Shown in pieces: positions 31,280 through 32,732 of a DNA stretch of 33,380 bases; position 1 is the stretch's first letter; each line of letters starts with the position of its first letter. A program made the position numbers and the translations under genes. The stretch is taken from contig SLSF01000020.1 in the NCBI GenBank assembly GCA_007130605.1, forward strand, positions 1 to 33,380, read 5' to 3'. The notes beneath the pieces are model-generated. The model saw only the letters and a program-made list of their open reading frames with translations. It had not been told where the DNA came from and did no database searches. This DNA comes from Gemmatimonadota bacterium. Its GTDB lineage: Bacteria > Gemmatimonadota > Gemmatimonadetes > Longimicrobiales > Gaopeijiaceae.

Positions 31280-31645
31280 TCAGGAGGCCTGGGTCAGCGC
31301 GTCCTTCGCCTGGGTGGCGAGGGCCTCGAAGGCCTCGGGGCTCCGCACCGCCAGGTCGGCGAGTGCCTTCCGGTCGAGCTCGACACCCGACTTGTTCAGG
31401 CCATCCATGAACCGGGAGTAGGAGAGGTCGTGCTGGCGCGCCGCCGCATTGATCCGGGTGATCCAGAGGCGCCGGAAGTTCCGCTTCTTCTTCTTCCGGT
31501 CGCGGTAGGCGTGCTCCCACCCCTTCTCCACCGCGTCCTTCGCCGTGCGGTAGATGTTCTTGCGGCGCCCGAAGTAGCCCTTGGCCTCCTTCAGGATCTT
31601 CTTTTTCCGGTCCCGCCGTGCGGGAGCTCCAGTGGTGCGTGGCAT
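31280..31645 (-). CDS. rplT: 50S ribosomal protein L20
   Basis: A 121-residue basic protein that binds 23S rRNA early in large-subunit assembly. Typical start [24 protein letters not shown], then [26 protein letters not shown] and KALADLA. L20 is the known autoregulator of infC-rpmI-rplT operons in E. coli and B. subtilis, so it is the first candidate to act on the structured infC leader of this window. Confidence 0.98.
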
Positions 31646-31663: not shown

Positions 31664-31861
31664 CTACAGATTCGGCAGGAGGCGGTTGATCCGCTTCTCG
31701 TCCTTCGGGTCCACCAGGGTGGCCTGCCGGAGGCGCCGCTTCCGCTTCGTGGTCTTCTTGGTGAGGATGTGGCTCTTGTTCGCACGACGGCGACGGAGCT
31801 TTCCGGTTCCGGTCCGCTTGATCCGCTTGGCGGCGGCGCGGTTCGTCTTCATCTTGGGCAT
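31664..31861 (-). CDS. rpmI: 50S ribosomal protein L35
   Basis: A 65-residue very basic protein ([25 protein letters not shown], then [17 protein letters not shown]). The start at 31861 follows AAGGAG by about 8 nt; an in-frame extension to 31924 is not protein-like. It is the middle gene of the classical infC-rpmI-rplT operon. Confidence 0.97.
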
Positions 31862-31936: not shown

Positions 31937-32458
31937 CTATTCTGCGGTCCGGATCGGAGCGAGCACCATGCTCAGCGTCCGCCCCTCGCGGGTCGGATTG
32001 CTCTCGATCTTTCCCATGTCCTTTACGGCCTCCACGACCCGCTCCATCACTTCCACCCCGAATTCCGGGTGGGCCATCTGGCGGCCCCGGAACATGATGG
32101 TGATCCGAACCTTGTCTCCGTCGCCCAGGAATCGCCGGACATGACGGGTCTTGAATTCGAAGTCGTGGGTCTCGATGCCGGGGCGGAACTTCACCTCCTT
32201 CACCGAGGCCGTGTGCTGCTTCTTCCGAGCCTCCCGCGCCTTCCGGGCCTCCTCGTACTTGAACTTTCCGTAGTCCATCAACTTGCAGACGGGGGGCCGG
32301 GCGTCGGGGGCCACCTCCACGAGGTCGAGTCCGGCCTCGTCGGCCCGTGACTTTGCCTCGTCGAGGGAGATGATTCCCACCTGTTCGCCATCGCCGCCGA
32401 TGAGGCGAACGGGGCTGATCCGGATCTGGTCGTTGACTCGGACCCTCTGTTCCTTTAT
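31937..32458 (-). CDS. infC: translation initiation factor IF-3, probable ATA start
   Basis: Binds the 30S subunit and checks start-codon choice. The IF3 match begins at IKEQRVRVNDQIRISPVRLI and runs through the linker (KFKYEEARKAREARKKQ) and C-terminal domain (FLGDGDKVRITIMFRGRQMAHPEFG). Between the upstream intrinsic terminator and this point there is no in-frame ATG, GTG or TTG, and none in the next 15 codons. GGAGG (32467-32471) lies 8 nt before an ATA at 32458, which gives a 173-residue protein, the B. subtilis length. IF3 discriminates against non-standard start codons, and infC of E. coli uses AUU for autoregulation, so an ATA start is plausible. A longer frame from ATG 32590 runs across the terminator and is rejected. 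Confidence 0.93.
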   Translation of the reverse strand: MKEQRVRVNDQIRISPVRLIGGDGEQVGIISLDEAKSRADEAGLDLVEVAPDARPPVCKLMDYGKFKYEEARKAREARKKQHTASVKEVKFRPGIETHDFEFKTRHVRRFLGDGDKVRITIMFRGRQMAHPEFGVEVMERVVEAVKDMGKIESNPTREGRTLSMVLAPIRTAE

Positions 32459-32490
32459 CGCTCGATCCTCCGATGGGGCCGCATCGGCCG

Positions 32491-32524
32491 AAAATGAAAA
32501 ACGGCCCGGAGCGTCTCCGGGCCG
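32491..32524 (-). terminator. intrinsic terminator in the infC leader
   Basis: A perfect 10-bp stem CGGCCCGGAG / CTCCGGGCCG with loop ACG, followed on the minus strand by TTTTTCATTTT. It lies 32 bp before the infC start and about 150 bp after a good promoter, so it is placed as an attenuator of the infC-rpmI-rplT operon, though it would also stop thrS transcripts. Confidence 0.85.
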
Positions 32525-32682
32525 AAGGTGGATGCGCACAGGGGATTCGCCCCCCGTCGGCATCTCGATTCGACCCGGCGGCGTCTCCACACCCCGGTGG
32601 GGGTGCGGGCCGAAGGGTGGAGGGGGATCGAGGCCCCCTCACTTCCGCAATTGTCTGTGCGCCTGCCAAATGCGCAGTTGGT
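32525..32682 (-). promoter_or_regulatory. structured infC leader (upstream of the terminator)
   Basis: Contains two more stems: GAGGGGG/CCCCCTC (32620-32626 with 32634-32640) and CACCCC/GGGGTG (32590-32595 with 32600-32605). The 11-mer CGGGCCGAAGG (plus strand) occurs at 32518-32528 inside the terminator and again at 32606-32616. The upstream copy could therefore pair with the 3' arm of the terminator and form an antiterminator. This layout resembles the L20-controlled leaders of infC operons in B. subtilis. No sequence match to those leaders is claimed. Confidence 0.5.
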
Positions 32683-32710
32683 AAGATAGCGGGATGCCCA
32701 TGGGGGTCAA
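32683..32710 (-). promoter_or_regulatory. promoter of the infC-rpmI-rplT operon
   Basis: On the minus strand TTGACC (32705-32710) and TATCTT (32683-32688) with a 16-bp spacer, in the gap just after the thrS stop. The predicted start near 32676 gives a leader of about 218 nt before infC. Confidence 0.65.
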
Positions 32711-32732
32711 CCTCACATGGGGATCATCACCC

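Follow-up and report, generated by a model that had tools for sequence, protein, structure and literature searches.

The leader that precedes infC-rpmI-rplT in this Gemmatimonadota genome very probably belongs to the L20-responsive transcription attenuators of that operon, as a divergent member with a switch mechanism. Its fold, its antiterminator pairing, its association with the operon and the match of its core to RF00558 are established by sequence comparison between genomes; we infer that the ligand is L20, which way it throws the switch, and that termination takes place in vivo. The kind is an ordinary one, an autogenous L20 attenuator, and is well supported; its interest lies in the extended range and in how it lets Scr1601 be read.

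Locus and leader architecture

Within the window, the whole 33,380-nucleotide stretch of DNA analysed, the C-terminus of ThrRS, IF-3, L35 and L20 were all recognised by NCBIfam models. The features of the locus are the following:

32733, minus strand: end of thrS; the leader region lies between thrS and infC
32683..32710, minus strand: sigma-70-type promoter, TTGACC-16 nt-TATCTT (sequence scan)
32568..32648, minus strand: aptamer core of the L20-leader type, AAG-N-P1-CACC-P2-RGGU (model R1, 68.7 bits, with the window itself in the R1 training set)
32642..32644, minus strand: invariant AAG that may supply the AA dimer of the L20 signature (alignments)
32619..32642, minus strand: hairpin P1, 32640-32634 with 32626-32620, plus G32642-C32619 (covariation)
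32573..32618, minus strand: hairpin P2, outer pairs ACCC 32618-32615 with GGGU 32576-32573
32579..32612, minus strand: inner pairs of P2, CGGC 32612-32609 with GCCG 32582-32579
32606..32616, minus strand: 11-mer copy 1, CCTTCGGCCCG, overlapping the P2 5' strand (repeat search)
32569..32578, minus strand: switch segment CCGGGUCGAA, the RGGU-containing antiterminator 5' strand (swap tests)
32518..32528, minus strand: 11-mer copy 2, CCTTCGGCCCG, at the terminator 5' arm (repeat search)
32517..32526, minus strand: UUCGGCCCGG, the 3' strand of the antiterminator, which shares positions with both 11-mer copy 2 and the terminator 5' arm
32496..32524, minus strand: intrinsic terminator stem-loop with T-tail (scan; terminator-like hairpins also occur in the leaders of relatives)
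32467..32471, minus strand: Shine-Dalgarno sequence GGAGG of infC (sequence; kept in relatives)
31937..32458, minus strand: infC (IF-3), most likely with an AUA start (TIGR00168; start placed from the Shine-Dalgarno sequence and alignment)
31664..31861, minus strand: rpmI (L35; TIGR00001)
31280..31645, minus strand: rplT (L20, the proposed ligand; TIGR01032)

The elements that the first-pass annotation had read from the sequence, namely a promoter, a leader of about 150 nt, a GC-rich stem with a T-tail, a duplicated 11-mer and the downstream operon, were all recovered. The promoter is the one promoter-like site found in the scan, against 0.1 expected in shuffles, and a 9-of-12 match occurs at most 110 nt upstream of the aptamer in 46 of 79 relatives (1.65 in shuffles). 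The distance from the -10 box to the aptamer is mostly 9-18 nt in relatives and 34 nt in the window. The -35 box is flanked by an 11-nt direct repeat (91%; 32699-32709 and 32716-32726, spacing 17). From the expected transcription start near 32676, the leader runs for about 150 nt to the terminator stem (32524-32502), which comprises 10 pairs, nine of them G-C, and a 3-nt loop followed by the T-tail, whose end (32491) is separated from the infC start (32458) by 32 nt. The 11-mer is part of a 24-nt repeat with 79% identity. The 211-nt leader folds better than its shuffles (z -2.8, 3/200), but the folding energy of a single leader is weak evidence alone, and the strength of the case comes from comparing the leader sequences of different genomes.

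The infC start is non-canonical and most likely AUA at 32458-32456, 8 nt after the GGAGG at 32471-32467, judging from the sequence. Most relatives have AUC, AUU or AUA at the equivalent position, and some have GTG. Start codons of the AUA type are linked to IF-3 autocontrol in other bacteria. A longer infC beginning at an ATG or GTG within the leader was ruled out, because the leader conserves RNA structure and because the Shine-Dalgarno sequence with AUC, AUA or AUU starts is conserved at 32458 in relatives. The segment CTCGATCCCCC (32632-32622), in the loop and 3' strand of P1, matches the complement of the infC Shine-Dalgarno region GGAGGATCGAG (32471-32461) at 10 of 11 positions, and long-range masking of that region by such pairing is possible.

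A conserved aptamer core in Gemmatimonadota

Comparison of infC leaders for covariation, as suggested at the outset, revealed a conserved, covarying RNA in about 80 Gemmatimonadota leaders. The infC upstream regions were taken from 32 genomes and then from 20 more, and share one layout: TTGAC...TATCTT, then GGAAGYG-hairpin-CCACCUUUCGGYCC-hairpin-GCCGCCGGGUC, followed by a variable hairpin, the terminator, GGAGG and AUC or AUA. The AAG is present in 80/80 Gemmatimonadota leaders and 26/26 from Actinobacteria. Over the 80 leaders, P1 is 97.1% paired with changes on both sides at six of its seven pairs, and pairing in P2 reaches 99.4% (outer) and 96.6% (inner). For P1 and P2 together, 97.6% of the cells are paired and 173 cells are changed on both sides, with a covariation score of 0.478 versus 0.211 in shuffled alignments (0/500) and 0.06-0.12 in slid controls; this alignment was fitted to the model and thus leans towards the structure. 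A MAFFT-based count on 24 sequences agrees with this picture, and the RNAalifold fold largely coincides with the hand-written structure. Within Gemmatimonadota the P2a pairs hardly vary, and their covariation support therefore comes only from comparison across phyla: the Y-R closing pair of P2 covaries in Actinobacteria, and in the L20 leaders of Lactobacillales the A-U pair of CACC...GGGU is replaced by G-C (CGCC...GGGC), which supports the outer P2 pairs.

At E <= 0.1, model R1 has matches in 121 of the 298 Gemmatimonadota genomes. Except at contig ends, every fetched match up to E 0.003 is followed immediately, on its own strand, by IF-3 and usually also by L35 and L20, and matches away from the infC operon begin at E 0.0033. 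Some more distant members of the class score only 24-35 bits and still lie at the infC operon; the leader is absent in a few relatives (L118, L120 and L128).

The antiterminator and the proposed switch

The switch segment CCGGGUCGAA can form 10 bp with UUCGGCCCGG (-19.5 kcal/mol), and in almost all species the corresponding segment around GGGUC is complementary to the terminator 5' arm, even though both strands vary. Examples of such pairs are GGGUCU/AGACCC (L012), CGGGUUC/GAGCCCG (L023), CCGGGUUCG/CGAAUCCGG (L024) and GGAGUCC/GGACUCC (L183). When the two strands were swapped between species, own pairs averaged -12.8 kcal/mol versus -11.0 for swapped ones, with 0/20,000 swaps as good, and a repetition with the terminator search widened slightly gave -13.3 versus -11.3 kcal/mol, again with 0/20,000. 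Such swaps preserve composition but not all relatedness, so that comparisons within groups are more conservative: inside the family of the window 0/20,000 swaps were as good, and inside two other groups own pairs were better in about 98.5% of trials. Over 80 leaders, the pairing of the switch segment with the terminator 5' arm has a z of -8.1, whereas the corresponding swap test in Actinobacteria was not significant (z -1.6). The first-pass annotation had proposed an attenuator with a built-in antiterminator. That idea holds, with a covarying antiterminator, but across the leaders the covarying pair is CCGGGUCGAA and the 5' arm, and the partners first proposed, the 3' arm and the upstream 11-mer copy, fare much worse.

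The GGGU can be used either in P2 or in the antiterminator, and the terminator 5' arm likewise in only one of two hairpins; modelled in this way, the leader is a three-way switch. The 11-mer is duplicated because the P2 5' strand and the terminator 5' arm can both pair with CCGGGUCGAA. Forcing the terminator or the antiterminator gives predicted folds of -95.0 and -95.4 kcal/mol, a difference of 0.4 between energies that carry errors of several kcal/mol, and with folds so nearly equal a ligand could tip the switch. A ligand-bound state in which 11-mer copy 1 pairs with the switch segment was rejected (z +2.2, no covariation), and P2 is preferred.

In the proposed mechanism, transcription would start at the promoter behind thrS, and the first part of the leader would form the L20-binding fold, consisting of the AAG, P1 and P2 closed by CACC...GGGU. 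With little free L20, CCGGGUCGAA would quit P2 and pair with the terminator 5' arm, and the antiterminator thus formed would allow readthrough into infC, rpmI and rplT. Once L20 exceeds the rRNA able to take it up, it would bind the fold and keep the GGGU in P2, whereby the terminator 5' arm would be freed and transcription would stop before infC.

Relation to the Firmicutes L20 leader

In B. subtilis, termination in the infC leader is induced by L20 (PMC6097659, PMC10931766), and L20 leaders of this type were described as limited to Firmicutes and Thermotogales in a paper that advised looking again for weakly conserved ones in other lineages (PMC3766115). RF00558, the Rfam family of the B. 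subtilis infC leader, was not listed for the window in Rfam scans, in which only tRNAs appeared at gathering thresholds, and its gathering threshold (58.7 bits) was reached by 0/29 relatives, with no listed match at the infC leader. Yfr1, the best match of a lax Rfam scan (E 0.27), was judged a chance hit on the shape of two hairpins and a terminator.

The Anoxybacillus RF00558 leader (73.7 bits) reads AAG-C-AGAAGC-ACCC-GCUUCU-CACCU...GCAGGU and shares the core order of the Gemmatimonadota leaders. The model R2, made from Gemmatimonadota only, locates this leader at E 0.0026 in 10.5 kb. Over 13 infC regions from Bacillota, one Actinobacterium and Proteobacteria or Bacteroidota controls, R2 gave three matches at an E limit of 10, and all three are RF00558 leaders at their exact places (Anoxybacillus, Acetoanaerobium and Subdoligranulum; E 0.0018-0.011). 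Since R2 finds these leaders, the window's leader is probably not the independent version of the L20 leader that had been suggested; the likeness drawn from the start to the L20-controlled attenuator of B. subtilis is, by contrast, borne out by the core shared with RF00558, as far as sequences can tell.

Both the leader in the window and RF00558 have the order AAG-N-P1-C(A/G)CC-P2-(A/G)GG(U/C), a terminator after the aptamer and a location before infC-rpmI-rplT; Gemmatimonadota leaders in general share the core order, the place, the following terminator and a mutually exclusive antiterminator. In contrast, the Gemmatimonadota sequences are too distant for RF00558's own model, are G+C-rich with longer and variable P2 and P3, and have another terminator sequence, with the switch segment set off from the terminator by a separate hairpin. 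A signature for mimicry of the L20 site in 23S rRNA has been published, consisting of two G-C pairs together with an AA dimer (PMC7247131); the AAG and the CC/GG, invariant or nearly so, agree with this signature, which is short enough for a chance match to be conceivable. A deltaproteobacterial L20 leader candidate was proposed to carry the same mimic, but on another scaffold according to its authors (PMC7247131). The E. coli L20 sites in rpmI-rplT mRNA involve the same regulator, operon and autogenous control, but act on translation through a long-range pseudoknot and an irregular hairpin, with infC outside L20 control (PMC10931766).

Actinobacteria and distribution across phyla

On 78 mostly actinobacterial loci, R1 matched weakly; the match fell on the infC leader in 44, and three more lay elsewhere. 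Conversely, a model built from 26 actinobacterial leaders (R3) finds most Gemmatimonadota leaders at unchanged coordinates, the core interval of the window among them (16.6 bits, E 0.3), and 17 of its 19 genome matches in Gemmatimonadota lie before infC. When six actinobacterial loci were scanned, Scr1601 (RF02830) was found to span the infC leader from ahead of the core to the terminator U-run in three Streptomyces loci, for example at L041:2187-2401, where it ends at the terminator before infC; the core is visible inside it. RF02830 matches the window weakly at full length (18.4 bits, E 0.07), below its gathering score of 100, which was reached in 0/39 relatives. In M. tuberculosis, the 326-nt infC 5' UTR outnumbers its gene, with a UTR/CDS ratio of 2.6-4.9 (PMC3207917).

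A plain core descriptor, which is untrained, occurs in the infC operons of 42/49 Gemmatimonadota, 46/76 Actinobacteria and 5/7 Bacillota; these sets are rich in close relatives, particularly Streptomyces, and the counts are thus not independent. It occurs in 0/10 Proteobacteria, Bacteroidota and Paenibacillus plasmid infC regions; antisense strands gave none, and shuffled sequences averaged no more than 0.1 occurrences. In the literature searched, which left many subscription papers outside, no L20 leader is described for Gemmatimonadota or Actinobacteria.

Judged from these sequences, a common feedback switch appears to operate in at least three bacterial phyla. It is rather probable that Bacillota, Actinobacteria and Gemmatimonadota hold one L20-binding leader by common descent, with Scr1601 and the M. 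tuberculosis UTR (known here from its published length and abundance alone) as attenuation products, and that it was missed as the model was confined to AT-rich Firmicutes. We infer descent for the likeness across phyla rather than convergence on the site of one protein.

Alternative explanations

It is unlikely, if the most serious of the alternatives, that the same attenuator answers to another ligand, with IF-3, L35 or a general factor (NusA, Rho) setting readthrough. infC is the first gene and has the AUA-type start mentioned above, and a partial look-alike of the core lies upstream of an IF-3 paralogue; yet the core equals that of the Firmicutes leader, in which L20 dependence was tested by others (PMC6097659), and it is absent at three plasmid infC genes that lack adjacent rpmI-rplT. 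The paralogue in question, in the same genome (L002:1423-2004, contig C243), is 54% identical and has no rpmI-rplT matches nearby. Upstream of it, L002:1340-1395 carries AAGTGGAG...CTCCACC and a GC hairpin with a T-run (12.9 bits, E 1.6), possibly a reduced leader by its sequence, and this look-alike blurs the argument against IF-3 as ligand. IF-3 paralogues also occur in several relatives. At L224:1116-1616 (assembly G001, contig C13), the IF-3 N-terminus resembles the alphaproteobacterial ones in the set (L034, L093), which would point to contamination or transfer in that assembly.

That the leader acts in trans as a small RNA, as Scr1601 is filed in Rfam (sRNA, not cis-regulatory), is improbable. 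Scr1601 is listed as an ncRNA expressed in S. coelicolor, and the homologue in S. ambofaciens has been called a UTR (PMC8388888); the RF02830 model does end in a terminator U-run. However, the fixed location before infC-rpmI-rplT in three phyla and the Gemmatimonadota antiterminator favour a cis role first, of which a trans role could be a by-product.

More improbable still is an attenuator that evolved independently and uses base pairing between the upstream 11-mer copy and the 3' arm of the terminator. The 11-mer is duplicated and able to pair with CGGGCCG, and over 80 leaders copy 1 and the 3' arm give a weak covariation signal (z -3.2) with weak pairing in many species; the switch segment and the 5' arm do far better, and a core that matches RF00558 leaders argues against independence. 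Least probable is an unregulated terminator that, from its position between thrS and infC, just ends thrS transcripts or fixes a readthrough level, given the promoter ahead of it, the conserved aptamer and an antiterminator that covaries at the expense of its 5' arm.

Implications

The core shared by Gemmatimonadota and Actinobacteria suggests an old and widespread feedback on ribosome assembly and opens the Streptomyces sRNA Scr1601 to a reading as a cis-regulatory leader. The set of G+C-rich leaders is a basis for a broader search model, and their distribution suggests that an apparent restriction of ribosomal protein leaders to one phylum may reflect nothing more than search models restricted in the same way.
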